From: Gautieria morchelliformis
Taxonomy: Eukaryota > Basidiomycota > Agaricomycetes > Gomphales > Gomphaceae
Direction of reading: 5' to 3'
DNA length: 64,000 nucleotides
Assembly: GCA_015179125.1 (NCBI GenBank)
Contig: WHVA01000252.1
Span: forward strand, 1-64,000
Shown here: positions 1,907 through 57,155 of the stretch, one piece after another
Layout: the number at the start of each line of letters is the position of its first letter
Numbering within the stretch: the first letter of the stretch is position 1
The notes under the pieces: generated by a model
What the model saw: only the letters and a program-made list of their open reading frames with translations
Told to the model about the DNA's origin: nothing
Databases searched by the model: none
Made by a program: the position numbers and the translations under genes

Positions 1907-2377
1907 TAATGTAATATAAATGCATCGGCTTGTGGCAGCGAAATCGACGGAGAACTTGCGACCGGCTCTGTACCTACGCACGGCGGTGACCCTCTCTAGC
2001 TGGTGGTTTTCTCGCGCTCGCTATCGAGCGCCGCCTGACACTCTCGAAGAGACACGTCCGAATAAGCATCTTCGATCGCGTATGTATTCTTTATAAGTGC
2101 CAGAGCCTCATAACACGTGCCGAGATAGCGCGCATCGGAGCCCGGGCGTATGGCGCTGAGGCCCATTCCTCACATGCGAGACCATAGTCGACACATGCAG
2201 CTCTAAGACCAGCCAAAATTTCATGGATATCGGTTAGGGCGCGGTGAGCAGCTCGACGACGTACTGGGGAGCTTGGCGAGTGTTGCAGAAGACGTTACGA
2301 CGTCGAAGGGAGCAAATTGGGCATGCATGCGCCAGTAGCGCTTGGCGTGTATGGTGTGTTGTAGGAGAGTAAGGAAG

Positions 2378-2632
2378 TTACACATCACGAATTTTGCGGT
2401 TGACTTTTCTATGTTTATTTTGGCGTTCGACGGCCGTAGGCGTACCAGCTAAGGAGTAGGCGCGGTGGTTGATGGAGCATCCGGCCGTGGCTGAGATTGA
2501 TCTCCCATTTGATGTGGGAGGTGCTGCGAAGGAGCTCTTGTGAAACCTCCGTCTGTGAAATATTGACAAGGCCCATCGGTGCAGTGGATATGTGACCGAG
2601 ATGTGCGGCTCATCAACGCGCAGATAGAACAT
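2378..2632 (-). CDS. Antisense ORF kept open in both duplicate copies (unrecognised)
   Basis: An 84-residue minus-strand ORF about 0.9 kb upstream of NLR copy 1 has a counterpart of 86 residues at 11041-11301. Both start MFY-R-DE and end KVNRKIRDV, and the indels between them keep the frame. It has no recognised domain, signal peptide or membrane segment. It could be a small divergent gene, an exon of something larger, or a chance frame in a conserved promoter region. Frame preservation across indels is the only evidence for coding. Confidence 0.25.
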   Translation of the reverse strand: MFYLRVDEPHISVTYPLHRWALSIFHRRRFHKSSFAAPPTSNGRSISATAGCSINHRAYSLAGTPTAVERQNKHRKVNRKIRDV

Positions 2633-3426
2633 CTAGGAAACAACGTCACTTTTGACCAACGGCGAAGACCTTGATTTTTGCTTCGGTTTCCACACTTACA
2701 ACGATTTAAATGCGCATCAAAAATGGCATAGTATGTAATGGTCTACTTCAACGTTCATATGCGTGACGACACTCTCATATACAGAATGCCAACCTTGATC
2801 AACAAGCCCTTGATTCGTGAGGTATATCGGCTGTGGTATTTACCCTGTAACATCTATACCTAAAGGCCAGGACCGAATGTACAGCCGCCATCGCCAGCAG
2901 CACCTTCTGCTATTCTCATTCACCTCCCGGCAAAGAGGTTCTCTAAACTGATATTCTTATTTATAGATCGGTACTTGCTGATCTTTTCTCTTGTTTTTGC
3001 TCAGGCATGCATCGTCGAGAATTATACATCCGATCTTCTGACGGCGAAGTATATCTTCCCCGACTAAAGAAGGTTGTCTGTATTGTCTGTTGGGGCGTTA
3101 TCTTAGTGAAGAGATGAGCATACTCAGTCGCGACGCCAACTGTTTCTTGGTATGTCGTGATGCTTCGGGAACCCTCCTGCGAACAGCTGTCCCCAGTCGT
3201 GTAAGGGATTGTTTATGAGCAAGTCGCCACCAAATTTGGAAGTCGCATTGTGGTAATGTAACAGCGTGCTGCGATGTGGAGATGGAGATGGCGAAGTTTC
3301 TTACATTTCAGTGCACGTGTGAACCGTTTCCTGTGCAGACCCTTGCCTCGTGGGCGAAGCGCATAGCGTTGACTGTCACAGCCCTAAACGGCACTAAGGC
3401 ATTGCCATGACGAGCGTCAAAATGTC

Positions 3427-3433
3427 TATATAT
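3427..3433 (+). promoter_or_regulatory. TATA-like box upstream of NLR copy 1
   Basis: TATATAT in the phrase TCTATATATGAGATGG lies 54 bases before the chosen ATG and is conserved at the same place before copy 2. Position and conservation make it a plausible core promoter element. No transcription start was seen directly. Confidence 0.35.
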
Positions 3434-3486
3434 GAGATGGCAGCCCTGGACTGTCGAGCGCCCCCCACAATCATCGACTCGATTTG

Positions 3487-6400
3487 ATGGCTGAAGCTCT
3501 GGCAGGTCTGGGAGTAGCAGGCAAGTGTGCTATACTCAATTAGATTCTACTGCGATGCTCATCAATCCACTCAGCGAGTGTCATTGCCGTTGTCCAGCTC
3601 ACAGAAAATGTTATCGGCAAGTGCTCCGCGTATGGAACTGCGTACAGGAATGCGTCCAGAGATATGAGCAGACTCAGCGACCAGATCTCCGGGCTACGTC
3701 AGGTGCTCCTTGACCTTAATGGGCTCATAGTGGCCCAAAGGTCCTCTCGATTGCCAACTTTGATGGCCGCGCTCAGTATATCCAATGAGCCTCACACTTC
3801 TGGCAGGCCTCCCGAGCTGGCAAACAGCGAGGATGGCTCGCGAGCCGACAATAGGCCCACTGAATCCATGCCAATCGGGCATGCGAGTCTCCTGCAAAGC
3901 CTCTTGAAGAAGCTCAAGCGCAAAGGACGCGGGAATACGATAGAAGCCCGGTATGAACACACAGATGGCGTCGGGTATCCCCCTGCGACAACTAGCCATG
4001 CCGGGATCGCCCCTGCGACTACTGGTGATGCCTTGCCAACTGAAGGTGGCAATACAGCAGGGAATGCGTCGGACAGCAACAATGATCGCATGAGTTTACC
4101 TCGTGTTCTTAGGGATTGTCACGACGAGCTGCAGAGCCTGGGGAAGAAACTAGAAACAAAGGATGTACGCGCATCTCGCATGGAAGCGTTGTTTTACACA
4201 TTCAAGCAAGGCGAGGTTAACAAGACTCTTGAGAACCTCCAAAGGTTCCAGCAGCAGCTTGTTGCGGCATTGGCCATTGATCAAGCGTAGGTTTGACTGC
4301 CTAACTGCGGACTGCAGCTGATGCTTTCATGTCGACAGACGTTTGGTGCTGGAGACACATGATAACCAACGTCGTCAGGATATCTATAATTGGCTGTCTG
4401 CTCCTGACTATGAGTCGAAACATTTGACTGCCATTACGGAGCGAGAAGGAAACACCGGCGCGTGGTGTGTGCAGGGAGACTGTTTCCAGGAATGGAGAGG
4501 GAAGCCCAAGTCGTTCCTATGGCTTCATGGCAAGGGTGCGTTCTCTGATTAGCTTATTTATGGTCGTCGCTGATTGGTATACACAGCTGGTGCAGGGAAG
4601 ACTATCTTATGGTATATAACTCAAACCTATCAAGATGTCTAGGTATCGTGCTAACAAATGCCTGTATCAAGCTCGACAATCATTAGGGAGATCTCCCGTC
4701 ACTGCGAATCAGACTCCTCGCTCGCAATCGCATTCTTCTATTTTGATTTTCACAGCAAGGATACAAAGCCACCTGCCGTCCTTCGTGCACTGATTAAACA
4801 GCTGTCCGCGAGGAGGTCTGCAAAGACATCTCCGAAGATCCCTGACTACCTGGCCGACTTATTCTCAAGAAAAGGGGATGGGAAGCAATCACCATCTTCC
4901 GAGGAACTGGAGTCGACACTCAAGTCCATCATTGGGACTTTCAAGAATGATGTGTATATTATCTTCGATGCCTTTGACGAATGCCCGGATCGACCTCAAT
5001 TTCTGAAACTGATCAAAGAAATCCATGAATGGAACTTTGACAAATTGCACCTCCTAGCAACGAGTCGGTACGAGCAAGACATTGAGAAGACATTGAGGGA
5101 CTTGGTTTCACATCAGGTGCCCATGGATGAGAATCTCGTCGACGGCGATATCCAAGTCTATGTGTCAAGACAAATGAATGATGATCCCAAATTCATTAGA
5201 TACTCGGAAGAAAAAAGGGAAACCATCAAGGCTACTTTAATGGACGGTGCGCATGGCATGTATGTGGTCATTTTTACGTTCTCCGGGACCGCCACTAACG
5301 GGTCAGGCAGGTTTCGATGGGTTGTTTGTCAGCTGGATTCACTACGAAAGTGCCGATCTCCCCACGAGCTCCAGATGGCACTCACCGATCTACCACCGAC
5401 TCTATACGAGACCTACGATAGGATTCTCCTACACATCGACGAGCGCGATAGAGTACATGCTCTCAAATTGTTGCAATGGCTCGCTTTCGCGGTCGACAAG
5501 GTGTCGCTCAGCGAGGCTGTGGATGTACTCGCTACGAATGCTGATGCCGTAAATAGTCCCTTTTTCGACCGAGATCGGCGGTTTGATGATCCACGGGACA
5601 TCCTGGCCATATGCTCGAGCCTGGTCACCTTTAGCGTCGTGCAGCCAATCCCATATCCTTTCGACCCCAAGGAACAGGAAGGATTCACAGAGCTCAAGCT
5701 GGCACATTTCTCCGTGCGCGAATATTTAGTCTCGGAAGGCCTCCGCAACCACGTCAAGCTGACGATCTATCACTGCAGCGAAAAACGGGCCAATACGTTC
5801 ATGGCCAAGACATGTGTAGCCTACCTGCTGCAATTCACCCAGCATGGTTGCATAAGCAAGGGTACACGCATATCCCATCCACTATGTTCATATGCTGCGC
5901 GAAACTGGATACGCCATACCCAGCCAGATAATGACAATGACATTAATTTGCGCCGACTGATTATGGCTCTTCTTCAATCAAAGGATGCAGGGGTGTACTC
6001 AAATTGGCTTGATCTTAGACACCCAAATGCCAGAGAGAGAGGAGCTCCCATCTTCCATACATCAATGGCAGGGCTAGCAAGAGCATGCCAGGATCTTTTG
6101 GAGAAGGGAGCAGATGTCAATGTGGAAGGTGGCTTGTCCGTCAATGCACTACAGGCAGCATCATTAGGGGGTCATCAAGCTACTGTTGAGCTGCTCCTGG
6201 ACAAGGGAGCAGATGTCAATGCACAAGGTGGCCTTTATGGAAATGCACTGCAGGCAGCATCATCAGAGGGCCATCAGGCCACTGTTGAGCTGCTCTTAGA
6301 GAAGGGAGCAGATGTCAATGTGCGAGGGGTGAGTATGGAAATGCACTCCAGGCGGCGTCATCAGAGGGCCATCATGCCACTGATGAGCTGGTCTGGGAGA

Positions 6401-8437
6401 AGGGAGCACAAGGTGGCATGTATGGAAATGCACTCCAGGCAGCATCATCAGGGGGTCATCAGGCCACTGTTGAGCTGCTCCTGGAGCAGGGAGCAGAGGT
6501 CAATGCGCAAAGTGGCAAGGATGGAAATGCACTGCAGGTGGCATCATTAAGGGGTTTTCAGGCCACTGTTGAGTTGCTCCTGGAGAAGGGAGCAGATGTC
6601 AATGCGCAAGGTGGCCTTTATGGAAATGCACTGCAGGCAGCATCATCAGAGGGCCATCAGGCCACTGTTGAGCTGCTCCTGGAGAAGGGAGCAGATGTCA
6701 ATGCGCAAGGTGGTGAGTATTGAAATGCACTCCAGGCGGCATCATCATGGGGTCATCAGGCCACCGTTGAGCTACTCCTGGAGAAGGGAGCAGATGTCAA
6801 TGTGCAAGGTGGCATGTATGGAAATGCACTCCAGGGGGCCTCATTATTGGGTCATCAAGCTACTGTTGCGCTGCTCCTGGACAAGGGAGCAGATGTCAAT
6901 GCACAAGGTGGCCTTTATGGAAATGCATTGCAGGCGGTGTCATTAGGGGCTCATCAGGCCACTGTTGAGCTGCTCCTGGAGAAGGGAGCAGATATCAATG
7001 CGCAAGGTGGTGAGTATGGAAGTGCACTCCAGGTGGCGTCATTCGAGGGCCATCAGGCCACTGTTGAGCTGCTCTTGGAGAAGGGAGCAGATGTCAATGC
7101 GCAAGGTGGTGAGCATGGAAGTGCACTCCAGGCAGCATCATCAGTGGGTGGTCAGGCCATTGTTGAGCTGCTCCTTGAGAAGGGAGCAGATATCAATGCA
7201 CAAGGTGGCAAGAATGGAAATGCACTCCAGGTGGCAACATTAGGGTCAGGCCACTGTTGAGCTGCTCCTGGAGAAGGGGGCAGATGTCAATGCACAAGGT
7301 GGCCTTTATGGAAATGCACTGCAGGTGGCATCATCAGTGGGTGATCAGGCCACTATTGAGCTGCTCCTGGAGAAGGGAGCAGATGTCAATGCGCAAGGTG
7401 GCTGGTGGGGCAATGCACTGCAGGCAGCGTCATTCATGGGTCATCAGGCAACTGTTGAGCTGCTCCTGGCAAAGGGAGCAGATATCAATGTGCAAGGCAG
7501 CTGGTGCGGCAATGCACTGCAGGCATCGTCATCCGGGGACCATCAGGCCACTGCTGAGCTGCTCCTGGAGAACGGAACAGATGTCAATGTGCAAGCTGGC
7601 AAATATGGCAGTGCACTCCAGGTGGCATCAATGGCAGGTCATCATGCCATTGTTGAGCTGCTCCTGGAGAAGGGTGCAGATGTCAATACGCAAGCTGGCA
7701 AATATGGCAGTGCACTCCAGGTGGCATCATTGGTGGGTCATCATGCCATTTTTGAGCTGCTCCTGGAGAAGGGAGCAGATGTCAATGCGCAAGGTGGCCT
7801 TTATGGAAATGCACTGCAGGCAGCGTCATCAGAGGGCCATCAGGCCACTGTTGAGCTGCTCCTGGAGAAGGGAGCAGATGTCAATGCGCGAGGTGGCTAT
7901 TATGGAAATGCACTCCAGGTGGCATCATTAGAGGGCCATCAGGCCACTGTTGAGCTGCTCCTGGACAAGGGAGCAGATGTCAATGCACAAGGCTGCTGGT
8001 GGGGCAATGCACTGCAGGCAGCGTCATTAATGGGTTATCAGGCCATTGTTGAGCTGCTCCTGGACAAGGGAGCAGATGTCAATGCGCAGGGTGGCATGTA
8101 TGGAAATGCACTCCAGGTAGCGTCATTAAGTGGTCATCAAGCTACTGTTGATCTGCTCCTGGACAAGGGAGCAGATGTCAATGCCCAAGGCGGTCGGTAT
8201 GGAAATGCACTACAGGCAGCATCATCAGAGGGCCATCAGGCCACTGTTGAGCTGCTCCTGGAGAACAGACCAGATGTCAGCGTGCAAGGTGGCAAATATG
8301 GCAGTGCACTCCAGGCAGCATCATCAGAGGGTCATCATGCCATTGTTGAGTTGATCTTGATGAGTGCCACACATATGGAGAATAGGACTGATGGCACTCA
8401 GGCTGATGCTCAACCACACCCCTCTTTATGTATTTGA
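3487..8437 (+). pseudogene. NACHT-ankyrin NOD-like receptor, copy 1 (broken in the ankyrin array)
   Basis: This is a STAND-type NTPase, the fungal counterpart of NLR immune receptors, expected in the cytoplasm. Predicted exons are 3487-3520, 3605-4286, 4339-4535, 4587-4611, 4672-5259 and 5311 onward. They give 922 codons up to a stop at 6550. In order: a HeLo-like helical domain (residues about 1-238, starting MAEALAGLGVA), a linker, NACHT with Walker A GKAGAGKT (about 303-310) and Walker B IIFDAFDECPD (about 406-418), then ankyrin repeats from about residue 766. The first intron starts GC, and the P-loop lies largely on a 25-nt exon. Against the repeat consensus I see a one-base loss near 6330, a stop near 6722 and a 5-base loss near 7245. 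The product would therefore keep only two full repeats plus a shifted tail. About 23 units remain recognisable up to 8360. It may be a pseudogene or encode a short receptor. Confidence 0.8.
6082..8360 (+). repeat. Ankyrin-coding 99-bp tandem array, about 23 units
   Basis: Each unit is 99 bp and encodes 33 residues built on GNALQAAS, GHQATVELLL and GADVNAQGG, the usual fungal NACHT-associated ankyrin pattern. Units are highly alike at the DNA level. The two residues before the invariant G of G(N/S)AL vary most (LY, WW, WC, KY, YY, CW, MY, RY). Two indels and one stop break the main frame. Confidence 0.9.
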
Positions 8438-8833
8438 CTGCAAGAACGATGGTAAAAGAAGAGACCTCACTGGGTCAGTGGCCATTACCACCATGTTATA
8501 CTCTACCTCTGAATGTTGCATTGCTAGAACGATGAGCATGGAGGTGTACTACACATGTGAAATTTATTTTTTTCCCTTTTTTTCCTCTTCATCATTTCAT
8601 TTGACCAGCGCAACCCATGCAGGAGGCTGCTACACTTGATGACCTGGATTCGGCTCATTATCCGTTCGTTTTTCGTGATATCGTGCCAGGTCTGGGTGAA
8701 GGCAGGGAAAGAGGTAGGAAAGGGAGTGGGTGGACAAGGATCAGGGAGGGCGTGCGGGGTGTCTTGTAAATCGCGTCGGACCTTCGGGTGCTGAAGGGGC
8801 GGGCATCGCGCACCACGACGCCTCTAGGTTTAG
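8438..8833. other. NLR 3' flank
   Basis: This is the 3' flank shared by both duplication copies. No gene is supported. The ORF-like phrase starting MDKDQGG at 8730 is also present in copy 2 (20236), but it overlaps the metaxin-like relic in another frame and is probably a shadow. Confidence 0.5.
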
Positions 8834-9990
8834 ACGGTTTGGCAGGGTCGATGGGGCCTACCGTCTATCGATGCTAGCTGCCTCGAAGCCATCAGATATC
8901 CTCAGATGGTCTTGCCTGGTCATTATTCCACATTTCAAACCGCAGATCTCGACCAGTCTCCCAGCGCACAGCTGCCATTCTTGACGCATGGTCAAATTAT
9001 CGTCTCTCCATCACCTTCCTATACTTAATCCCTACACCACACCCTTCTCAAACCTTCAAACTTTCAGGATGCGTACGAGATCGACCCAAGCATGGTCACC
9101 CCAACCTTCGATGCAGGTCTCAGTGCGTTGCAGCTCTCACAGAGGACAGCTTGGCGAGGGTACTTGGAAGTGCAGCTGGGGGATCTCGTAGTCAGTCAGC
9201 TCGTGCGTTGAATCAGCTACCTGCTTGTTGACATCTTCGTTTCCTCGTTGAAAGGCCCGTTCATTATTTGTCCTGAAGCCCAACTTAGCCTCACACATGG
9301 AACGCTAGCCTCCATCCTCCCTGTCCCGCAGCGGTACTACGTCCCACCCCGTATAAAGAGAGTCCTCGACCGCGCCTAGAAGTGGTACGTTTGTGGGCAA
9401 TAGCAAACGAGCCAGAACATCGCCAGGACGACCCAGGAACCGGGAGATCATAATGAAACCAGCGAAGCTCAAAGCAAGCGCGCTTTCAGTCAGCCCCAGG
9501 TATGCCACACCATGTGGTATATTGACCTTTGGCCCAAGCTGGTCGAGAAGGCCAGACTTGTGTTTGATATATTAGTCAAGCTGCTCAGCGAGAAATCATT
9601 CCTCTTTATTGATCGGTTAGCCTCTCATCTCTCGCATTTCCGCTGAGTTAACTATCTCATATTAGACCCACATCTGCGGACATCGCGCTGGCCTCACTTA
9701 TTCTCCTTCTAACCAATGCCCCACTTCCAAATTCCGCTCTCAAGGATCTTCTGCGTGCATCCTATCCTTCTTTGATATCGCACGCGACTCGCATACACAC
9801 ACTGGCATTTCCCTCCTCCCCATCTGCCTCCAACCCTCGCCCACACATTCTCCCACCGAAGCGCATGAACCCTTTAATGATCTTCAAACGCTCTCTGAGC
9901 CATTTTAGCATGTCTCGCAGACATGTGTCAGAGGAGCTGAAACGGTTTCGTAGAAAATTTCATTCAGAAGTATTAATACCTTTTAAAGAA
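8834..9990 (+). pseudogene. Metaxin/SAM37-like relic, copy 1
   Basis: Three blocks resemble the metaxin/Sam37 (Tom37) subunit of the mitochondrial outer-membrane sorting and assembly machinery, which inserts beta-barrel proteins. The N-terminal GST-like part gives WGLPSIDASCLEAI and later QLPFLTHGQIIVSPS (about 8850-9010). The middle gives LSQRTAWRGYLEVQLGDL (about 9130-9190). The C-terminal part gives KARLVFDILVKLLSEKSF (about 9550-9605). An intron at 9616-9665 follows, then PTSADIALASLILLLTNAPL. The start codon position that is ATG in copy 2 is ACG here, and the blocks need several frame changes, so this looks like a dead gene. The assignment is from memory of the family. Another GST-like protein is possible but less likely, because block order and spacing fit metaxins. 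Confidence 0.6.
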
Positions 9991-10066
9991 TCAATATAAA
10001 GAAAAAATAAAAATACTGCCCACAAACTCTCAACATCACGAGCCTTCTCCGTGGCACTGTGGATAC

Positions 10067-10417
10067 GTGGCTGCTGTACTCTCTTCCCAAGGCATCCAAT
10101 CTCTGCCTCGTATCCCCAGTCATATCCATTACATCTGTGCTCAACTTTTCTCTCGCAGCTTCCCTCGTTATCCTACTCGGAATACCGCTATCTATATCCT
10201 CGCCGACAATAGGCCTTACGTCGAAGATGGCCAAAGCCATGTCGTATTTTATGCTACTGTTCCCCATTTGGTGGATGTTACTCGCGACGCCAATATCTCA
10301 GTCTATATGGGATTGGCCGGTTTTGGGCGTTTGGTTCGCACCATTCGTCTGCATAGTGTACTTGCCGTTGGTAGTACTTCAGGCAACGGTCGTGTGCATG
10401 CTAGACCCATAGCATAA
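10067..10417 (+). CDS. Unrecognised ORF conserved after the metaxin relic, copy 1
   Basis: The 116-residue frame starts MAAVLSSQGIQSLPR and has the phrase ILADNRPYVEDGQSH. The matching frame in copy 2 (21567-21911) keeps the same start and most residues, with several differences at third codon positions. An overlapping +1 frame would encode a hydrophobic protein in both copies, so the true frame is uncertain. It may be the 3' exon of the metaxin-like gene or of a separate gene. No function can be given. Confidence 0.3.
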   Translation: MAAVLSSQGIQSLPRIPSHIHYICAQLFSRSFPRYPTRNTAIYILADNRPYVEDGQSHVVFYATVPHLVDVTRDANISVYMGLAGFGRLVRTIRLHSVLAVGSTSGNGRVHARPIA

Positions 10418-11040
10418 TCTCATATATGCCTGAGCATCCTTTGACTCTCGCAGGCCAACACTACACATTGCTCTAGCTAGGCTATACGCTGGTCAAGTGT
10501 GAATTCTACTGAAGCTAGAATCAAGACCCAATAGCAGTTTGCATAATGTAATATTAAACAATGCATGTGAGCGGAATCGACGGAGAACTTGCGATCGCAT
10601 CTGTACTTACGCACGGCGGTGACCCTCGCTGGCTGGTGGTTTTCTCGCGCTCGCTATCGAGCGCGGCCTGACACTCTCGAAGAGACACGTCCGAATAAGC
10701 ATCTTCGATCGCGTATGTATTCTATATAAGTGGCAGAGCTTATAACACGTGCCTGGCGGAGATGACGCGCATCGGAGCCCGGGCGGTACGGCCTATTAAT
10801 TCCTCACATGCGAGTCCATAGTCGACGCATGCAGCTCCAAGACAAGCCGAAATGTCACGGTTGGATATCGGTTAGGGCGTGAGCAGCTCGACGACGTACT
10901 GGGGAGCTTGGCGAGTGTTGCAAAAGGCGTCGCGACGTCGAAGGGAGCAAAATCGATAAATTAGGCATGCATGCGCCGATAGCGCTTGGCGTGTATGATG
11001 TGTTGTATGAGGAATGGTGTGTTGTATGAGGGTAAGGAAG

Positions 11041-11301
11041 TTACACATCACGAATTTTGCGGTTGACTTTTGTATTTCTATTTTGGCTTTCGACGGCCGT
11101 AGACGTACCAGCTAAGGAGTAGGCGCGGTGGTTGATGGAGCATCCGGCCGTGGCTGAGGTTGATCTCCCATGTGATGTGGGAGGTGCTGCGAAGGAGCTC
11201 TTGGGAAACCACCGTGAAATATTTTTACTGAATGACAAGGCCCATCGGTGAAGTGGATACGTGGCCGAGATGTGCAGCTCATCTGCGCGCGGATAGAACA
11301 T
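11041..11301 (-). CDS. Antisense ORF kept open in both duplicate copies (unrecognised), copy 2
   Basis: 86-residue counterpart of the ORF at 2378-2632, about 0.85 kb upstream of NLR copy 2. The two share most residues, including AYSLAG and the C-terminal KVNRKIRDV. The middle differs by indels that keep the frame (net two codons). No domain is recognised. Confidence 0.25.
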   Translation of the reverse strand: MFYPRADELHISATYPLHRWALSFSKNISRWFPKSSFAAPPTSHGRSTSATAGCSINHRAYSLAGTSTAVESQNRNTKVNRKIRDV

Positions 11302-12092
11302 CTAGGAAACAGCGTCACTTTTGACCAACGGCGAAGACCGTGATTGTTATATGATTTAGCTTCGGTTTCCACACTTACAGCGACTTCAATGCGCATCAAA
11401 AATGGCATAGTATGTAATGGTCTACTTCAACGTTCATATGCGTGATGACGGCTCATATACAGTATGCCAACCTTGGTCAACTAGCCCCTTCATTCGCGAG
11501 GTATATCGGCTGTGGTATTTAACCTGTATCATCTATACCTAAAGGCCAGGACCGAATGTACAGCCCACGTGGCCAGCAGCACCTTCTGCTATGCACCTTC
11601 ACCTCCCGGCAAAGAGATTCTCTAAACTGATATTCTTATTTATAGATCGGTACTTGCTGATCTTTTCTCTTGTTTTTGCTCAGGCATGCATCGTCGAGAA
11701 TTATACATCCGATCTTCTGACGGCGAAGTATATCTTCCCCGACTAAAGAAGGTTGTCTGTATTGTCTGTTGGGGCGTTATCTTAGTGAAGAGATGAGCAT
11801 ACTCAGTCGCGACGCCAACTGTTTCTTGGTATGTCGGGATGCTTCGGGAACCCTCCTGCGAACAGCTGTCCCCAGTCGTGTAAGCGGTTGTTTATGAGCA
11901 AGTCGTCACCAAATTTCGAAGTCGCACTTTGCTACTGTAACAGCGTGCTGCGATCTGGATGGCGAGGTTTCTTAGGCTTCAGGGGACGTGTGAACCGTTT
12001 CCTGTGCCTTGCCTCGTGGGCGAATCGCATAGCGTTGACTGTCACAGCCCTAAACGGCACTAGGGCATTGCCACGACGAGCGTCAGAATGTC

Positions 12093-12099
12093 TATATAT
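12093..12099 (+). promoter_or_regulatory. TATA-like box upstream of NLR copy 2
   Basis: TATATAT lies 53 bases before the chosen ATG at 12152, in the same sequence context as in copy 1. Confidence 0.35.
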
Positions 12100-12151
12100 G
12101 AGATGGCAGCGCTGGAATGTTGAGTACCCCGATAACCATCGACTCGATTTG

Positions 12152-15100
12152 ATGGCTGAAGCTCTGGCAGGTCTGGGAGTAGCAGGCAAGTGTGCTATAC
12201 TCAATTAGATTCTACTGCGATGCTCATCAATCCACTCAGCGAGTGTCATTGCCGTTGTCCAGCTCACAGAAAATGTTATCGGCAAGTGCTCCGCGTATGG
12301 AACTGCGTACAGGAATGCGTCCAGAGATATGAGCAGACTCAGCGACCAGATCTCCGGGCTACGTCAGGTGCTCCTTGACCTTAATGGGCTCATAGTGGCC
12401 GAGGACGTCCAAAGGTCCTCTCGATTGCCAACTTTGATGGCCGCGCTCAGTATATCCAATGAGCCTCAAACTTCTGGCAGGCCTCCCGAGCTGACAAACG
12501 GCGGGGATGGCTCGCGACCTGGCAATGGACCCACTGAATCGATGCCAATTGGGCATGCGAGTCTCCTGAAAAGCCTCTTGAAGAAGCTCAAGCGCAAAGG
12601 ACGCGGGAATACGATAGAAGGCCGGTCTGAATGCACAGATAGCATAGGGTATCCCCCTGGGACAACTAGCAATTTCGGGACAACGTCGGAAAGCCATGTT
12701 GAACGCACAGATGGCATCGCCCCTGCGACTACTGGTGATGGCTTAACAACTGAAGGTGGCAATACAGGAGGGACTGCGTCGGACAGCAACAATGATCGCA
12801 TGAGTTTACCTCGTGTCCTTAGGGATTGTCACGACGAGCTGCATAGCCTGGCGAAGAAGCTAGAGACAAAGGATGTACGCGCATCTCGCATGGAAGCGTT
12901 GTTTTACACATTCAAGCAAGGCGAGGTTAACAAGACTCTTGAGAACCTCCAAAGGTTCCAGCAGCAGCTTGTTGCGGCATTGGCCATTGATCAAGCGTAG
13001 GTTTGACTGCCTAACTGCGGACTGCAGCTGATGCTTTCATGTCGACAGACGTTTGGTGCTGGAGACACATGATAACCAACGTCGTCAGGATATCTATAAT
13101 TGGCTGTCTGCTCCTGACAATGAGTCGAAACATTTGACTGCCATCACGGAGCGAGAAGGAAACACCGGCGCGTGGTTTGTGCAGGGAGACTGTTTCCAGG
13201 AATGGAGAGGGAAGCCCAAGTCGTTCCTATGGCTTCATGGCAAGGGTGCGTTCTCTGCTTAGCTTATTGATGGTCGTCGCTGATTGGTATACACAGCTGG
13301 TGCAGGGAAGACTATCTTATGGTATATAACTCAAACCTATCGAGATATCTAGGTATCATGCTAACAAATGCGTGTATCAAGCTCGACCATCATTAGGGAG
13401 ATCTCCCGTCACTGCGAATCAGACTCCTCGCTCGCAATCGCATTCTTCTATTTTGATTTTCACAGCAAGGATACAAAGCCACCTGCCGTCCTTCGTGCAC
13501 TGATTAAACAGCTGTCAGCGAGGGCCCCTGAAAAGATATCTCCGAAGACCCCTGACTATCTGGGGGACTTATTCTCTAAAAAAGGGGATGGGAAGCAATC
13601 CCCATCTTCCGAGGAACTGGAGTCGACACTCAAGGCCATCATTGGGACTTTCAAGAATGACGTGTATATCATCTTCGATGCCCTTGACGAATGCCCGGAT
13701 CGACCTCAATTTCTGAAACTGATCACAGAAATCCAAGGATGGAACTTTGAGAAATTACACCTCCTAGCAACGAGTCGGGACGAGCAAGACATTGAGAAGA
13801 CACTGAGGGACCTGGTTTCCCATCAGGTACCCATGGATGAGAGTCTCGTTGACGGCGACATCCAAGTCTATGTGTCAAGACAATTGAAGGATCCCAAATT
13901 CAGTAGATACACGGAAGAAAAAAGGGAAACCATCAAGACTACTCTAATGGACGGTGCGCATGGCATGCATGTGATCATCTTTACTTTCTCCGGGACCGCT
14001 ACTAACGGGTCAGGCAGGTTTCGATGGGTTGTTTGTCAGCTGGATTCACTACGAAAGTGCCGATCTCCCCACGAGCTCCAGATGGCACTCACCGATCTAC
14101 CACCGACTCTATACGAGACCTACGATAGGATTCTCCTACACATCGACGAGCGCGATAAAGGACATGCTCTCAAATTGTTGCAATGGCTCGCTTTCGCGGT
14201 CGAAAGGGTGTCGCTCAGCGAGGCTGTGGATGTACTCGCTACGAATCCTGACGCCGTAAATGGTCCCTTTTTCGACCGGGATCGGCGGTTTGATGATCCA
14301 CGGGACATCCTGGCCATATGCTCAAGCCTGGTCACCTTTAGCGTCGTGCAGCCAAAGCCAAATCATTTCGACTCCAAGGAACGGGAAGGATTCACAGAGC
14401 TCAAGCTGGCACATTTCTCCGTACGCGAATATTTGGTCTCGGAAGGCCTCCGCAGCCACTTCAAGCTGGCCATCTATCACTGCAACGAAAAACAGGCCGA
14501 TACATTCATTGCCAAGACATGCCTAGCCTACCTGCTGCAATTCAACCAGCATGGTTGCATAAGCAAGAATACACGCATATCCCATCCACTATGTTCATAT
14601 GCTGCGGGATACTGGATTCACCATGCTCAGCCAGATAATGACAATGACATTGATTTGCGCCGACTGATTATGGCTCTTCTTCAATCCAAGGATGCAGGGG
14701 TGTACTCAAATTGGCTTGAGCTTAAAAACCCAAATGCAAAAAAGAGAGACGCTCCCATCTACTATATGTCAATGGCTGGGCTAGCAAGAGCATGCCAGGA
14801 TCTTTTGGAGAAGGGAGCAGATGTCAATGCGCAAGGTGGCTGGTGCGGCAATGGACTGCAGGCAGCGTCATTAGGGGGTCATCAAGCTACTGTTGAGCTG
14901 CTCCTGGACAAGGGAGCAGATGTCAATGCACAAGGTGGCGAGTATGGAAATGCACTCCAGGCGGCTTCATCAGAGGGTCATCAGGCCACTGTTGAGCTGC
15001 TCTTGGAGAAGGGAGCAGATGTCAATGCACAAGGTGGCGAGTATGGAAATGCACTCCAGGCGGCTTCATCAGAGGGTCATCAGGCCACTGTTGAGCTGCT

Positions 15101-18100
15101 CTTGGAGAAGGGAGCAGATGTCAATGCACAAGGTGGCGAGTATGGAAATGCACTCCAGGCGGCTTCATCAGAGGGTCATCAGGCCACTGTTGAGCTGCTC
15201 TTGGAGAAGGGAGCAGATGTCAATGCGCAAGGTGGCGAGTATGGAAATGCACTCCAGGCGGCGTCATCACAGGGCCATCATGCCACTGTTGAGCTGCTCT
15301 TGGAGAAGGGAGCAGATGTCAATGCACAAGGTGGCTATTTTGGCAATGCGCTTCAGGCAGCGTCATCAGGTGATCACCAGGCCACTGTTGAGCTGCTCCT
15401 GGAGAAGGGAGCAGATGTCAATGCGCAAGGTGGCTATTATGGAAATGCACTCCAGGTGGTGTCATTAGGGGCTGATCAAGTTACTGTTGAGCTGCTCCTG
15501 GAGAAGGGAGCAGATGTCAATGCGCAAGGTGGGTATTATGGAAATGCACTGCAGGCGGCGTCAGTAGCGGGTTGTCAGGCCACTGTTGAGCTGCTCCTGG
15601 AGAAGGGAGGTGATGTCAATGCACAGGGTGGTGAGTATGGAAATGCACTGCAGGCGGCGTCATCAGAGGGTGATAAGGCCACTGTTGAGCTGCTCCTGGA
15701 GAAGGGAGCAGATGTCAATGGGCAAGGTGGCAAGTATGGAAATGCACTCCAGGCTGCATCATCAGGGGTCATCAGGCCACTGTTGAGCTGCTCCTGCACA
15801 TGGGAGTAGATGTCAATGGGCAAGGTGGCAAGTATGGAAATGCACTCCAGGCTGCATCATCAGAGGGCCATCAGGCCACTGTTGAGCTGCTCCTGGAGCA
15901 GGGAGCAGATATCAATGTGCAAGGCGGCTATTATGGAAATGCACTCCAGGCGGCGTCATCAGAGGGCCATCAGGCCACTGTTGAGCTGCTCCTGGACAAG
16001 GGAGCTGATGTCAATGCACAAGGTGGCTGGTGCAGCAATGCACTGCAGGCGGCGTCATTAGGGGGTCATCAAGCTACTGTTGAGCTGCTCCTGGACAAGG
16101 GAGCAGAGGTCAATGTGCAAGGTGGCAAGCATGGAAATGCACTCCAGGCGGCATCATCAGAGGGCCATCAGGCCACTGTTGAGCTGCCCCTGGACATAGG
16201 AGTAGATGTCAATGCGCAAGGTGGCAAGTATGGAAATGCACTCCAGGCAGCGTCATTCCATGGTCATCAGGCCACTGTTGAGCTGCTCCTGGACAAGGGA
16301 GCAGATGTCAATGCACAAGGTGGCGAGTATGGAAATGCACTCCAGGCAGCGTCATCAGGGGGTCATTGGGCCACTGTTGAGCTGCTCCTGGAGAGGGGGG
16401 CAGATGTTAATGTGCAAGGTGGCAAGTATGGATATGCACTCCAAGCGGCGTCATTAGGGGGTCATAATGCCATTGTTGAGCTGCTCCTGGAGAATGGAGC
16501 AGATGTCAATGTGCAAGGTGGCTTTTATGGAAATGCACTCCAGGCGGCATCATTAGTGGGTCATCAGGCCACTGTTGAGCTGCTCCTGGACAAAGGAGCA
16601 GATGTCAATGTGCAAGATCACAATTGTGGCAGTGCACTCCAGGTGGCATCATCAGATGGTCATCATGCCATTGTTGAGCTGCTCCTGGAGAAGGGAGCAG
16701 ATATCAATGTGCAAGGTGGCTTTTATGGAAATGCACTCCAGGCGGCGTCATCAGAGGGCCATCAGGCCACTGTTGAGCTGCTCCTGCAGAAAGGAGCAGA
16801 TGTCAATGTGCAAGGTGGCTATTATGGAAATGCACTGCAGGCAGCGTCATTAGGGGGTGATCAAGCTATTGTCGCGCTGCTCCTGGAGAAGGGAGCAGAT
16901 GTCAATGCACAAGGTGGCGAGTATGGAAATGCACTGCAGGGGGCATCCTTAGTGGGGCATCCAGCTACTGTTGAGCTGCTCCTGGACAAGGGAGCAGGTG
17001 TCAATGTGCAAGGTGGGTATTATGGAAATGCACTCCAGGCGGCGTCATCAGTGGGTGATAAGGCCACTTTTGATCTGCTCCTGGAAAGGGGAGCAGATGT
17101 CAATGCGCAAGGTGGCAAGTATGGAAATGCACTCCAGGCGGCATTATCAGGGGGTCATCAGGCCACTGTTGAGCTGCTCCTGGAGAGGGGGGCAGATGTT
17201 AATGTGCAAGGTGGCAAGTATGGATATGCACTCCAAGCAGTGTCATTAGGGGGTCATAATGCCATTGTTGAGCTGCTCCTGGAGAAGGGAGCAGATGTCA
17301 ATGTGCAAGGTGGCTTTAATGCAAATGCACTCCAGGCGGCATTATCAGGGGGTCATCAGGCCACTGTTGAGGTGCTCCTGGAGAGGGGAGCAGATGTCAA
17401 TGTGCAAGATGACAATTGTGGCAGTGCACTCCAGGTGGCATCATCAGAGGGCTATCATGCCATTGTTGAGCTGCTCCTGGAGACGGGAGCAGATGTCAAT
17501 GTGCAAGGTGGCTTTTATGGAAATGCACTCCAGGCGGCGTCATCAGGGGGTCATTGGGCCACTGTTGAGCTGCTCCTGGAGAGGGGGGCAGATGTTAATG
17601 TGCAAGGTGGCTATTATGGATATGCACTCCAAGCGGCGTCATTAGGGGGTCATAATGCCATTGTTGAGCTGCTCCTGGAGAATGGAGCAGATGTCAATGT
17701 GCAAGGTGGCTTTTATGGAAATGCACTCCAGGCGGCATCATTAGTGGGTCATCAGGCCACTGTTGAGCTGCTCCTGGACAAAGGAGCAGGTGTCAATGTG
17801 CAAGGTGGCTATTATGGAAATGCACTCCAGGCAGCGTCATCAGTGGGTGATAAGGCCACTGTTGATCTGCTCCTGGACAAGGGAGCAGATGTCAATGTGC
17901 AAGGTGGTGAATATGGAAATGCACTACAGGCAGCGTCATCACAGGGCCATCTGGCCACTGTTGAACTGCTCCTGGAGCAAGGAGCAGATGTCAAAGTCCA
18001 AGGTGGCAAATATGGCAGTTCACTCCAGGCGGCATCATCAGCGGGTCATCATGCCATTGTTGACCTGCTCTTGATGAGTGCCACACATATGGAGCACTAG
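12152..18100 (+). CDS. NACHT-ankyrin NOD-like receptor, copy 2 (one frame break in the array)
   Basis: Paralogue of the gene at 3487. Predicted exons are 12152-12185, 12270-12996, 13049-13245, 13297-13321, 13382-13966 and 14018-18100. The model closes at 1,120 codons with a stop at 15809. Domains in order: HeLo-like helical domain (residues about 1-253), NACHT with Walker A GKAGAGKT (about 318-325) and Walker B IIFDALDECPD (about 422-433), then ankyrin units from about residue 779. The linker has extra in-frame blocks relative to copy 1. Two introns have GC donors: the first (shared with copy 1) and that at 13967-14017, where copy 1 has GT. That intron is 51 nt and stop-free, so it can be retained in frame. 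Near 15767 one G is missing from a run that has five Gs in sister units. The array continues in the new frame from 15800 to 18100 without another break and ends LLLMSATHMEH. The one-base loss could be real, a sequencing error, or somatically variable. Confidence 0.8.
14788..18080 (+). repeat. Ankyrin-coding 99-bp tandem array, about 33 units
   Basis: About 33 units of exactly 99 bp. Three neighbouring units (14934-15230) differ by at most one base. A larger block that includes a distinctive GAGAGGGGGG..GATGTTAATG unit recurs at about 16391, 17183 and 17579. These are offsets of 792 and 1,188 bp, exactly 8 and 12 units, so four-unit blocks have been copied as well as single units. Residues at the presumed beta-hairpin tip vary (WC, EY, YF, YY, KY, FY, HN, FN). 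Confidence 0.92.
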
Positions 18101-18238
18101 GATTGACGGCACTCAGGCTGATGCTCAACCACACCCCTCTTGATGCATTTGACTGCAAGAATGATGGTAACAGAAGAGCCCTCACTGGGTCAGTCCAAAC
18201 TCCCATCATGTTATACTCTATCTCTGAATGTGGCATTG

Positions 18239-20001
18239 TGTCAACATTGCTTTTTAGGCGTTAATATTGTTGGGTGCATTTATGCTCCTGCACCAAAATC
18301 AAGCATAATGTATTCGATTTATTGTATGGTTTTTCAATCTCTTCTCACATTGTTCTTGTACCATGCATTCACTTCTCTGATTATTTTCGAAATTTTCCAG
18401 TCACTCCCTACCTCTCTATTTCATTTTGTTATCTCTATTTTCACAGGCGGCTGCACCCAGCGGAGTTTGAAATGACTTCGATGTGCGAGCTCTTGAGCGC
18501 TAAAGGGCCGAGTGCATGTATATGCCTTCTGAGACAGGATTGTACTCCTCTCTCAGTGACAATAAATTCACTGAGAGAGGCGAGTAGTATTCTTTGTATT
18601 TTCATAGCATGTTGACTGAAAATCATGTAGTGCATTTGATTCTAGGCATTGTATTAATATAACAGTGACAATAAATTCACTGAGAGAGTGCATTTGATTC
18701 TAGCTTTCTAAGAACTCTACCGAACCTTCCCTGCCATAACCCCAAGTTGCTAACAAATATCGTGTATTAGTGAACACAGCGAATGCCCGAATACCTTGTG
18801 CAAATAAGTATGCCATTCGGCGAATAGGTGAACCAATAAATGTTCACAAGATAAGAGGGTTGCCCGAACGGAGCTCGCCCTATCTACAGTCGTAGCGATA
18901 TAGCCCGTGGCACTTGACGATGTAATGTACAAGGTGTCACAGAAGGGTTGTCTAAGTAGCGACAATCCTTTCGCCGGCGAAGGTGCTCCTTTGGAGCCCT
19001 TTGCCAACAGCACAGAAAATAATTCGAAGGCTAAGGTAACGAAGATGAAGTATGAGAACTCACCAGTGATGCCTAAGTCCTCTTCTGGTCGAAGATAGAA
19101 ATCTCCAGGAGAAGGCTCAAGATGATGATCACAGCGAGGTCAAGTTTACAAGATGGATGACGTATGATAATTGAACTGGGGAATGTACATGCAAATGCAA
19201 ACAACTTATATTGAATGCTCATGAGGTATCAGCGAATAGGAAAGCGGCCGTCCCGAGTTAGGGTTGGATAGGGGTGCGCAGGCATGATACAACATAGATG
19301 GAATAAACATACAATAGAGTGAGAGATGAGGGAGAACATGAAACCACGGAGAGTAAAGGTGCCGAAGGCACTTATGTACGGAACCATGTCTTGGGACCTG
19401 CATATATGCTACCCTGCATGGACTCTTCGTCTACGGCGTTGATCCCACACGACCTACGGAAGGGATGTCCCGCGAACACATCCTAGCCATATGAACACCC
19501 AAAGGGGTTGGATCGAGAAGCTGATGGGAGTAATGACGAACCATCATACCTGGGAGGGGGCGTTGATCCTGTTTTGATGGCGTGCCTGTTGGCGAATGAT
19601 GCGAGCAGCGAATAGTCGTTTGGTGAAATGTGAGGAAGGGCGAATGGAGATGACATAGGGGAGGAGTGGTAGAAGTGGGGGGCGAAGCTGAGCGAACATG
19701 GGGGAGGAGTGGCGAAAGGAGAAATAGGGATAACAAGGTGTAGGAAATACACAAGTAATGACAATTCGATCATAGGAACACCATCGAAAGAGGGTTGAGC
19801 AGAGGAGGTGATAGGCCCAGTGATGACTACCAAGTTGGTCCAAAGACGTCAATCGTGCTCTGGCGGCGTGGCTATGGTGAATGGCGCGAACAGTGAAGAT
19901 CGGTCGCCGAACACGGCAAGGGCGATCGGAGCGAACACGGAGGTGGAGTGGGGAATGGAAGAACTGAGCAGCTGACTATGAGAAGTAAACGTGTCATGAC
20001 A
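18239..20001. mobile_element. Solo LTR (1.27 kb family) with nested Copia solo LTR
   Basis: The insert begins TGTCA and ends TGACA and is flanked by perfect 5-bp duplications CATTG (18234-18238 and 20002-20006). Copy 1 of the segmental duplication shows the empty site near 8518-8525. Without the nested element it is about 1,270 bp, matching the copy at 37212-38478 at roughly 90 percent by eye, with mostly transition differences. No coding domains were seen, so it is read as an LTR left after LTR-LTR recombination. It inserted after the segmental duplication. Confidence 0.75.
18268..18755 (+). mobile_element. Nested Copia-type solo LTR
   Basis: This 488-bp sequence starts TGTTGGGTGCA and ends CTAACA, flanked by AATAT on both sides (18263-18267 and 18756-18760). 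It is a diverged relative of the two 498-bp LTRs of the Copia element at 24583-29837 and keeps the paired CTCTCTCAGTGA/TCACTGAGAGAG arms. It inserted into the older solo LTR. Confidence 0.85.
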
Positions 20002-20046
20002 CATTGCTAGATCGATGAGCATGGAGGTGTACTACACATGTGACCT

Positions 20047-20090
20047 TTTATTTTATTTTATTTTATTTTATTTTATATTTTATTTTATTT
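20047..20090. repeat. (TTTTA)n microsatellite
   Basis: About eight near-perfect TTTTA units. Copy 1 of the duplication has only a short T-rich tract at the same place (about 8566-8590), so this expanded after duplication. Confidence 0.9.
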
Positions 20091-20339
20091 CTTTTCATCA
20101 TTTCATTTGACCATGGGAACCCATCGAGGAGGTTGCTACACTTGATGACCTGGCTTCGGCTCATTATTCGTTAGTTTTTCGTGATATCGTGCCAGGTCTG
20201 GGTGAAGGCAGGGAAAGAGGTAGGAAAAGGAGTGGGTGGACAAGGATCAGGGAGGGTGTGCAGGGTGTCTTGTAAATCCCGTTGGACCTTTGGGTCCTGA
20301 AGGGGCAGGCGTTGTGCCCCACGACGCCTCTAGTTTTAG

Positions 20340-21515
20340 ATGGTTTGGCCGGGTCGATGGGGTCTACCATCTATCGATGCTAGCTGCCTCGAAGCCATCA
20401 GCTATCTTCAGCTGGCCTTGCCTGGTCATTATTCCACAGTTCACACAGCAGATCCTGACTAGTCTCCCAGCGCACATCTGCCATTCTTGACACATGATCA
20501 AATTATCGTCTCTCCATCACCTTCCTATATTTCATTCCTAACACATGCCCTTCTCAAACCTTCAGACTTTCAGGATGAGTACGAGATTGACCCAAGCACG
20601 GTCACCCAAACCTCGATGCAGGACTCAGTGCATTGCAGCTCTCACAGAGGACAGCTTGGAGAGGGTACTTTGAAGCGTAGCTGGGCGATCTCGTAGTCAG
20701 TGAGCTCGTGCGTTGAATTGGCTACCTGTTTGCTGACATCTTCGTTTCCTCATTGAAAAGCCCATTCATCATTTGTCCTGGAGCCCACCTTAGCCTCACA
20801 CATGCAACGCTGGCCTCCATGCTACCTGTCCCGCAGCGGTACTACGTCCCACGCCGTATAAAAGAGAGTTATCGACCGTGCCTAGAGGTAGTATGTTTGT
20901 GGGCTATAGGAAACAAGCCAGAACATTGCCAGGATGACCCAGGAGCCCGGAGAGATCAAAATGAAACCAGCGAAGCTCAAATCAAGCCCGCTTTTGGGCA
21001 GGCCAAGGTATGCCACTCCATGTGCTGTAGACGGGTGTATTGATCTTAGGGTCAAGCTGGTTGAGAAGGCCAGACTTGTGTTTGATATATTAGCCAAGCT
21101 GCTCAGCGAGAAATCATTCCTCTTCATCAACAGGTTAGCCTCTCATCTCTAGCATGTCTGCCAATTAACAATTCTCATATTAGACCCACATCTGTGGCCA
21201 TCGCCTTGGCCTCACGTATTCTCCTTCTAACCAATGCCCCACTTCCAAATGCCGCTCTCAAGGATCTTCTCCGTGCATCCTGACCTTCTTTGATATCACA
21301 TGCGACTCGCATACACACACTGGCATTTCCCTTCTCCCCATCTGCCTCCAACCTTCACCCCCAGATTCTCCAACTGAAGCGCATGAACCCTTTACTGATC
21401 TTCAAAAGCTCTTTGAGCCATTTTAGCACCTCTTGTGCACATGAGTTGGAGGAGGTGAAACGGTTTCATAGAAATTTTATTTCAGAAGTATTAATACCTT
21501 TTAAAAAACCAATAT
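20340..21515 (+). pseudogene. Metaxin/SAM37-like relic, copy 2
   Basis: This copy keeps an ATG (20340) directly followed by MVWPGRWGLPSIDASCLEAI, a good metaxin/Sam37 N-terminus, then LALPGHYSTV and, after an in-frame stop, LPFLTHDQIIVSPS. The middle block LSALQLSQRTAWRGYFEA also meets a stop. The C-terminal block KARLVFDILAKLLSEKSF is followed by an intron (about 21134-21183) and a further metaxin-like stretch. The breaks differ from those in copy 1, so the two copies decayed largely independently. A working SAM37 is expected elsewhere in the genome if this identification is right, because the complex is normally needed for mitochondrial function. Confidence 0.6.
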
Positions 21516-21566
21516 AAAGAAACATTAAAAATATTGCCCACAAACTCTCAGCAATGAGCTTTCTCC

Positions 21567-21911
21567 GTGGCTGCTGTACTCTCTTCTCAAAGCATCCAAT
21601 CTCTGCCTCGTATCCCCAGTCATATCCATTACACCTGTGCTCAACTTTTCTCTCACAGCTTCCCTCGCTATCCTACTCGGAATACCGCCATCTGTATCCT
21701 CGCTGACAATAGGCCTTATGTCGAAGACGGCCAAAGCCATGTCATATTTTATGTTACTGTTCCCCATTTGGTGGATGTTACTCACGATGCCAATGTCTCA
21801 GTCCATATGGGATTGGCAGGTTTTGGACGTCTGGTTCGCACCATTCATCTGCATAGGGTACTTGTCGTTGGTACTTCACTAGACAACGGTCGTGTGCATG
21901 CTAGACCGTAG
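21567..21911 (+). CDS. Unrecognised ORF conserved after the metaxin relic, copy 2
   Basis: 114-residue counterpart of 10067-10417, sharing ILADNRPYVEDGQSH and MGLAGFGRLVRTI. The frame is open in both copies despite many substitutions. No domain is recognised. Confidence 0.3.
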   Translation: MAAVLSSQSIQSLPRIPSHIHYTCAQLFSHSFPRYPTRNTAICILADNRPYVEDGQSHVIFYVTVPHLVDVTHDANVSVHMGLAGFGRLVRTIHLHRVLVVGTSLDNGRVHARP

Positions 21912-22105
21912 CATAATCTCATATGCACGGCCAATTGTCCTTTGACTCTGGCGCACGAAGGTAAGACCAACACTACGCATTGGGTGGCTGTGCCAGCTAG
22001 GTCATATGCTGGTCAAGTGTTACAGTAATTCTACCCAAGCTAGAATCAAGACACAGATATTCAATATTACACCAGCTTGCACAATGTAATATTATAAATA
22101 GTGTT

Positions 22106-24582: not shown

Positions 24583-25080
24583 TGTTGGGTGCATTTATGC
24601 TCCTGCACCAAAATCAAGCATAATATATCCAATTTGTTGTGTGGCCTTCCAATTTCTTCTCACATTGTTCTTGTATTATGCATCCATTTCTCTGGTTATT
24701 TTCGAAATTTTCCACTCATTCCTTATCTCTCTATTTCATCTTGTTATTCCTACTTTCACAAGCGGCTGCACCCAGCGGAGTCTGAAATGACTTCGACGCG
24801 CGAGCTCTTGGGCGCTAAAGGGCCGGGTAGTAGTACATGCGCAGTGGAACACATTTCCCCCTCTCTCAGTGACCACTAAATTCACTGAGAGAGGCAAGTA
24901 AATTAGTCTAGTAGTCTTTGCATTTATTGACCTAGAAATCCTCTATAGTGAATTGATTTCTAGGTAGTGTATAATATATTTAGAGTGACCACTAAATTCA
25001 CTGAGAGAGTGAATTGATTTCTAGTCTATTCTTTTGAATAACAAGTCCATACCTACTGCCTATAATTCCTGTCCTCTACA
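24583..25080 (+). repeat. Copia 5' LTR (498 bp)
   Basis: It starts TGTTGGGTGCA and ends CCTCTACA. It contains CTCTCTCAGTGA and TCACTGAGAGAG as close inverted arms at about 24861-24893, and the right half of that hairpin again near 24990-25010. Confidence 0.95.
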
Positions 25081-25093
25081 GGGTTATGGGCCC
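25081..25093 (+). promoter_or_regulatory. Copia primer-binding site matching initiator tRNA-Met anticodon arm
   Basis: The 13 bases right after the 5' LTR are GGGTTATGGGCCC, the reverse complement of GGGCCCATAACCC, the anticodon arm of eukaryotic initiator tRNA-Met. Priming by an internal part (5' half) of this tRNA is known for Drosophila copia and relatives. Position directly against the LTR supports this reading. Confidence 0.7.
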
Positions 25094-29339: not shown

Positions 29340-29837
29340 TGTTGGGTGCATTTATGCTCCTGCACCAAAATCAAGCATAATATATCCAATTTGTTGTGTG
29401 GCCTTCCAATTTCTTCTCACATTGTTCTTGTATTATGCATCCATTTCTCTGGTTATTTTCGAAATTTTCCACTCATTCCTTATCTCTCTATTTCATCTTG
29501 TTATTCCTACTTTCACAAGCGGCTGCACCCAGCGGAGTCTGAAATGACTTCGACGCGCGAGCTCTTGGGCGCTAAAGGGCCGGGTAGTAGTACATGCGCA
29601 GTGGAACACATTTCCCCCTCTCTCAGTGACCACTAAATTCACTGAGAGAGGCAAGTAAATTAGTCTAGTAGTCTTTGCATTTATTGACCTAGAAATCCTC
29701 TGTAGTGAATTGATTTCTAGGTAGTGTATAATATATTTAGAGTGACCACTAAATTCACTGAGAGAGTGAATTGATTTCTAGTCTATTCTTTTGAATAACA
29801 AGTCCATACCTACTGCCTATAATTCCTGTCCTCTACA
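29340..29837 (+). repeat. Copia 3' LTR (498 bp)
   Basis: Same length as the 5' LTR and nearly identical. The right flank CGCGT belongs to the interrupted Gypsy B reverse transcriptase. Confidence 0.95.
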
Positions 29838-56995: not shown

Positions 56996-57155
56996 ATGCG
57001 CGCACTGTATGTAGTTTACATAATCAGCATTAAATAGTTGTGCTGGGGAGATTGCCGAAGAATGACGTAAGGCTCTTTGCGTACACCTATACACCTTACA
57101 TAGCTATGGTATGACATCTTTTGCTTCCAAACAACCCCAGAAGAACTCAAGACAC

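Follow-up and report, generated by a model that had tools for sequence, protein, structure and literature searches.

An ankyrin array in a tandem pair of putative fungal NLR genes, probably edited by unit duplication, an eight-unit duplication and in-register conversion

How does a receptor array built of many nearly identical repeats change? The question is raised by an ankyrin array in a window of 64,000 nucleotides (positions 1 to 64,000 of contig WHVA01000252.1, GenBank assembly GCA_015179125.1) of the basidiomycete Gautieria morchelliformis. The array (array B) belongs to a gene (gene B) that reads as a fungal NOD-like receptor (NLR), and a sister gene (gene A) with its own array (array A) lies upstream of it. 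An earlier reading of the DNA letters alone (the original prediction) took array B to be copied in exact 99-bp units and in four-unit blocks, and saw in it a fast, living generator of binding surfaces. Our analysis makes it likely that the two genes are a tandem paralogous NLR pair whose array was edited by single-unit duplication, by a duplication of about eight units and by in-register conversion, with further conversion between the sisters.

Is the array part of a receptor gene? The gene anatomy can be observed directly. The exons of gene B (12152-12185, 12240-12996, 13049-13245, 13297-13321, 13382-13966 and from 14018 onwards) come from a six-exon model built by hand from splice signals, without a transcript; its five introns measure 51 to 60 bp, and the spliced model is a single open protein. 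In Pfam this protein matches NPHP3_N and NACHT, its P-loop GKAGAGKT is intact, and the C-terminal repeats of the gene are ankyrin repeats that match Ank_2 (E values in Table 1). Because the open NACHT exons sit upstream of array B, the identification as a fungal NACHT-ankyrin NLR, already proposed in the original prediction, stands. The 14 Pfam rows obtained for the 5' protein at E up to 1 included no HET or WD family, and the same protein had no Pfam match to PNP_UDP. Residues 8-72 resembled PigL_N (PF17111) with E 0.005 and 16.7 bits, under the cut-off of 27.2; a passage of PMC9815663 terms this family HeLo-like, and the N-terminal region of gene B is possibly HeLo-like. An AlphaFold2 model of that region, made on two sequences, had a low predicted local distance difference test score (pLDDT 42.5). 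Relatives of the NACHT part were not confirmed among 4 pattern matches in viral_contigs or 24 in genome_contigs. In the hand-made models, intron 12186-12239 begins with GC in both copies, and intron 13967-14017 of gene B begins with GC where its counterpart in gene A, 5260-5310, begins with GT.

Tandem Repeats Finder placed array B at 14806-18070, with a period of 99 and 33.0 copies. When the array was laid out unit by unit (a 4-base tail row, B34, was left out of the unit counts), 32 of the 33 units were exactly 99 bp long. The expectation of about 33 units of exactly 99 bp therefore held for the number and for all lengths except that of B10, which has 98 bp. The one-base loss in B10 shifts the frame, so that the open reading frame (ORF) of gene B ends at 15809; the units after B10 can be read in a different frame over 15689-18100, and across the 33 units there is no in-frame stop. 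Runs of at least five G occur 14 times in the array, and 31 distinct protein units are found among the 33. The repeats are Ank in Pfam, where no WD family row appeared for them at E up to 0.01, and no RNA feature reached the gathering scores of Rfam. Among possible relatives of the array, none of 41 pattern matches in viral_contigs was confirmed; 258 plasmid records matched, the best place of each at less than 60% identity, and the five plasmid records listed carry the annotation 'ankyrin repeat protein'.

By which steps was the array copied? The similarity patterns between its units are directly observed, and exchange and conversion are the names we infer for the events behind them. The strongest diagonal segments in array B lay at offsets of 12 units (265/268 identical), 1 unit (253/254) and 8 units (177/182), and 2000 shuffles of unit order gave p = 0.0005, 0.004 and 0.009, respectively. 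The offset-1 segment, in units 2-4, backs the single-unit duplication that had been proposed, and the three adjacent units at 14934-15230, said to be nearly identical, differ by 0, 1 and 1 bases. A distinctive unit said to recur at 16391, 17183 and 17579 does so with 2, 2 and 4 differences, and its recurrences lie exactly 8 and 12 units from the first place.

The offset of 8 belongs to a longer block. Units B16-B23 and B24-B31 show 63 differences, a similarity matched by 0 of 1000 shuffles and the strongest among the six block sizes tried (2, 3, 4, 5, 6 and 8 units; p 0.028 to 0.001, uncorrected). For each of B25-B28 and B31 the nearest unit, sole or tied, is one of the offset-8 partners (B17-B20 and B23). 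The offset-12 similarity is confined to a tract of 268 bp inside the copy: at offset 12 the mismatch rate is 0.011 (3/268) inside the tract, 0.167 to its left and 0.25 to its right, and at offset 8 it is 33/268 (0.123) inside, 27/456 (0.059) to the left and 3/68 (0.044) to the right. Because the offset-8 register is kept on both sides, the tract appears to have swapped sequence at constant array length, which argues for gene conversion rather than another unequal exchange. The patterns are best accounted for if about eight units were duplicated once in tandem and the 268-bp tract was afterwards written over part of the copy without a change of register. A matched chain of insertion and deletion could yield the same pattern, at the cost of more steps. 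Exchange at more than one scale, as the original prediction had it, is upheld by the block comparison.

Table 1. Positions of the gene parts, arrays, units and tracts in the 64,000-nucleotide window
Feature	Position	Strand	Basis and remarks
Copy A of tandem segmental duplication	1907..10425	+	window self-BLASTN
Gene A, 5' part	3487..6097	+	gene model; five introns as in gene B, frame open
Ankyrin array A, 23 units	6098..8352	+	unit layout; lesions in A03, A04, A07, A12
Copy B of tandem segmental duplication	10544..21924	+	window self-BLASTN; split by transposon-like DNA of ~1.8 kb (about 18239-20001)
219-bp tract, 2939-3157 of copy A	11618..11836	+	exact identity; upstream of gene model
263-bp tract, 3472-3734 of copy A	12137..12399	+	exact identity; across intron 12186-12239
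Gene B, 5' part (N-terminal region and NACHT)	12152..14804	+	hand-made model; NPHP3_N 2.5e-36, NACHT 6.2e-12
253-bp tract, 4156-4408 of copy A	12866..13118	+	exact identity; across intron 12997-13048
Ankyrin array B, units B01-B33 (33)	14805..18070	+	unit-by-unit layout; Pfam Ank_2 9.8e-167 on 15689-18100
Units B02-B04, putative recent single-unit duplications	14904..15200	+	253/254 at offset 1
Unit B10, 98 bp	15696..15793	+	one base missing from G run at 15765, which ends the frame at 15809
Units B16-B23, putative source of ~8-unit tandem duplication	16289..17080	+	block comparison; outer borders uncertain
Putative donor of 268-bp conversion-like tract (B16.61-B19.31)	16349..16616	+	265/268 identical
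Units B24-B31, putative 8-unit tandem copy	17081..17872	+	block comparison
Putative recipient of 268-bp tract (B28.61-B31.31)	17537..17804	+	265/268 identical; in register within 8-unit copy

Do the two sister genes also exchange sequence? They lie in a tandem segmental duplication, for which self-BLASTN of the window (19 rows; pairs inside the arrays left out) paired 1907-4006 with 10544-12680 (89.7%), 4003-8349 with 12713-17073 (89.2%) and 8563-10425 with 20067-21924 (88.0%). Upstream of the arrays, A and B show 244 differences over 4076 aligned sites, 124 of them transitions and 120 transversions. The five longest exact runs between them measure 323, 253, 219, 157 and 128 bp (cutting at a gap shortens the longest to 263 bp), and each exceeded its rank in all 20000 shuffles; for this test and the transition test the alignment was trimmed at its start, by 200 columns, and at its end. 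Whole introns are covered by two of the runs and an intron is entered by a third; of the other two, one is all exonic and one is situated upstream of the gene model. Because these directly observed exact tracts reach introns and upstream DNA, conversion between the sisters is favoured, and gene conversion would be a better explanation of the intron-reaching and upstream tracts than purifying selection alone. As a separate candidate, repeat-induced point mutation (RIP) between A and B was rejected, transitions being found at 24 of 553 RIP-context sites vs 83 of 1364 other sites.

Array A was found by Tandem Repeats Finder at 6099-8350, with a period of 99 and 22.9 copies (A01 was counted without its first base, the input starting at 6099 and the array at 6098), and unit number thus differs between the paralogues, 33 in B and 23 in A. 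Upstream of the arrays, both copies are free of stops over 780 aligned exon codons, and the ratio of nonsynonymous to synonymous substitution (dN/dS) between A and B over these codons is 0.58. The exon indels, of 9, 36 and 3 bases, are multiples of three in 3 of 3 cases, and those outside exons in 4 of 14; the exon count excludes a one-base 'indel' at 6098/14804, which arises from the way the sequences were cut. Because the exons are free of stops, their indels are in frame and dN/dS is 0.58, both copies have probably been read as genes during most of the time since they split.

How fast has the array changed? Divergence is 0.004 for the single-unit copies (95% 0.0001-0.022), 0.011 for the conversion tract (95% 0.002-0.033) and about 0.06 for the eight-unit copy (30/524 mismatches). 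For the whole-locus duplication it is 0.062 (95% 0.055-0.071), a value lowered because identical tracts are included, and 0.080 outside the low windows. By these values the gene pair clearly predates both the single-unit copies and the conversion tract; for the eight-unit copy an age equal to that of the pair, or slightly less, is indicated. The order of units is still partly collinear between A and B in a distance-based test at three thresholds, with 300 shuffles for each (p = 0.003 for all units and 0.007 to 0.017 for interior units), and very fast reshuffling is argued against because this residual order is kept. The nearest unit lay in the same array for 42.9 of 56 units vs 28.3 expected (p = 0.0002), and units were more alike within than between arrays, although the mean difference was small (0.73 bases, p 0.009). 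The words 'fast' and 'living' were therefore too strong for this array: the divergence of its eight-unit copy is close to that of the gene duplication, residual A/B order persists, and as assembled the frame of each gene is broken within the array.

Does variation fall on positions that could bind a ligand? With the ankyrin position numbering that we assume here, amino-acid variety in array B was highest at positions 3, 14, 17 and 26. At seven positions that we take to be DARPin-type binding positions (DARPins being designed ankyrin repeat proteins), the nonsynonymous difference per site (pN) in array B was raised to 0.246 (p = 0.0098), and its ratio to the synonymous value (pN/pS) was 1.15 vs 0.46 elsewhere; in array A, pN at the seven positions was likewise raised (p = 0.012). 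Codons with gaps or stops were excluded from these counts. Such a pattern is in keeping with selection for diversity of the binding surface, and it may have arisen without positive selection, of which it is no proof.

Several observations weigh against the picture of a receptor array edited by these steps. The pN/pS ratio at the seven positions gave p = 0.10 in B, with a bootstrap range of 0.88-1.8, and was 0.76 (p = 0.25) in A; listed positions 2, 5 and 33 are nearly invariant in B, and unlisted positions 17 and 32 vary. Unit B24 has 9 differences from its partner B16 but only 5 from B10, and the pairs 21/29 and 22/30 mismatch (15 and 13), which we ascribe to later overwrite. Mean unit differences are close, at 14.5 within B, 16.2 within A and 15.8 between the arrays. 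The permutation tests assume exchangeable units, and several were picked after the data had been seen. Finally, the frame break in B10 and the four lesions of array A leave no open frame through the repeats as assembled.

Are both genes, then, decaying relics, the array being a recombining repeat without receptor function? The frame lesions are seen directly, and in both copies those found fall inside the arrays. Array A has two frameshifting deletions (-1 in A03 and -5 in A12), an in-frame deletion (-12 in A04) and, in A07, a stop at 6721; array B has one frameshift. Decay would also suit the weak constraint expressed by the exon dN/dS and the transposon-like DNA directly 3' of gene B. However, the exon codons of both copies are free of stops and their indels are in frame, array B runs over 33 units without an in-frame stop, and its sole lesion lies in a G run. 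For Podospora het-d, a long-read study (PMC12222747) considered a repeat deletion located in a homopolymer to be probably a misassembly, and it reports stops inside a repeat of a different strain that have read support. The break in B10 is either a sequencing error in the G run or a recent mutation, and the present allele may or may not give a full receptor; we lean slightly to sequencing error because a young Copia-type element in the window is also frame-shifted, near a short A run. On balance, we regard decay of both genes as unlikely.

The same lesion raises the question whether unit count, unit order or the frameshift is an artefact of assembly or base calling. Arrays of this kind are not assembled reliably from short reads, and long reads show homopolymer deletions, as sections of PMC12222747 report; the frame shift in the Copia-type element, whose long terminal repeats (LTRs) are 99.8% identical, would fit such errors as well. 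But 31 distinct protein units among 33 are not what a simple collapse leaves, and a tract in register would be a strange artefact, so that this explanation seems improbable to us.

Could blocks of four units have been the unit of unequal exchange, as originally proposed? Offsets of 4, 8 and 12 units are all present, the best four-unit block (B17-B20 vs B25-B28) gave p = 0.017, and a test for a period of four units gave p = 0.01 when all units were used. The period-4 signal was lost (p = 0.54) without the units of the eight-unit block, however, and the offset-4 segment had p = 0.23. In a 396-bp comparison the second copy differed from the first by 2, 7, 7 and 6 bases per unit and the third by 2, 0, 18 and 11, so that the third matches in its first two units only; the match of the third copy extends across 2.7 units, and offset 8 returns right of the tract. 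The 'four' is simply 12 minus 8, and we hold a four-unit exchange step to be very improbable. That the B10 break is real and the gene a short receptor of about ten expressed units, the 23 later units and array A being an unexpressed store that feeds conversion or unit loss restoring new units or the whole array, as a fungal counterpart of silent-cassette archives, is in our judgment very improbable as well.

Taken together, these data point to a tandem NLR pair in which the array is the likely ligand-binding part of the receptor. Homologous recombination between near-identical 99-bp units would enlarge and edit it, by single-unit duplication and, as a separate mode, by tandem duplication of about eight units through unequal exchange; tracts of gene conversion in register would overwrite units, and conversion would also act between sister genes A and B. 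The product would recognise non-self ligands and trigger a death response, and selection may have retained the changes. The value of the locus is that single-unit duplication, the duplication of about eight units and the conversion-like tract can be separated in one array, with the sister copy as a yardstick for turnover. It argues against inferring the size of an exchange step from unit offsets, and if sequences of several strains were at hand it could show the speed at which ankyrin NLR arrays change in a fungus other than Podospora.

The window holds other repeated DNA. The young Copia-type element spans 24583-29837, with RVT_2 and rve, and its coding frame is shifted between overlapping ORFs near 28243, close to the short A run. 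Directly 3' of array B, within the 1.8 kb that splits copy B, 18263-18709 is 82% identical to the Copia LTR. A repeat of 1.2 kb is present in two copies, 18756-20001 and 37236-38478, which are 88% identical. ORFs resembling a long interspersed nuclear element (LINE) lie at 33092-37226 (- strand) and 40367-42386 (+ strand); the ORF at 34685-35608 matches an endonuclease-reverse transcriptase family, and 33885-34280 and 41613-41217 are related stretches in opposite orientation (71%). At 57153-57551 a stretch of 400 bp is self-complementary, with 81% identity to its own reverse complement.

How does the locus compare with known systems? A literature search run without the species name found no paper linked to it, which is a weak negative. 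DARPins are engineered and usually have few repeats; the best row for array B among them was 6mol (E 9.5e-75), and some variable positions of the array are among those that we take to be randomised there. In the Podospora NWD and HNWD genes (het-d, het-e, het-r and pseudogenes; PMC1805685, PMC2873952, PMC12222747), as far as the consulted sections of these papers go, NACHT is likewise combined with repeats that undergo unit duplication and deletion, conversion within arrays, exchange with pseudogene paralogues and, in some alleles, lesions in repeats. Chevanne et al. 2010 (PMC2873952) described WD arrays that lose and duplicate units spontaneously, some cases fitting conversion and unequal exchange, and exchange of repeats between active genes and pseudogenes was inferred by Paoletti et al. 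2007 (PMC1805685). Those genes carry WD40 repeats (HNWD also HET) and undergo RIP, whereas here the repeats are ankyrin, no HET match was obtained and no RIP was seen between A and B. The comparison with repeat shuffling in Podospora, drawn in the original prediction, is sound, and Dyrka et al. 2014 (PMC4986451) had already extended it to ankyrin NLRs: the portions consulted describe highly conserved ankyrin repeats in NLRs of ascomycetes and basidiomycetes and a repeat number that is polymorphic among Podospora isolates, and they place most of the variable sites on the concave surface. Like the ankyrin NLRs treated there (Podospora Pa_3_8560 and Pa_2_8180, Chaetomium globosum gi116208038), our locus joins NACHT to near-identical 33-residue ankyrin repeats, with variation at hairpin and inner-helix positions and with concerted evolution, which was inferred there; unlike them, it has no PNP_UDP match and its frames are broken. 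Their mark for highly conserved NLR repeats, about 85% identity among repeats, was set with T-reks, and our values, which are not T-reks values, are a mean identity to consensus of 0.841 (B) and 0.822 (A) and a mean pairwise identity of 0.763 and 0.740. In most of the respects compared, the locus matches what is known of repeat evolution in fungal NLRs, and it departs in lacking an open frame; the length of its array and the resolved history of its events are its own.
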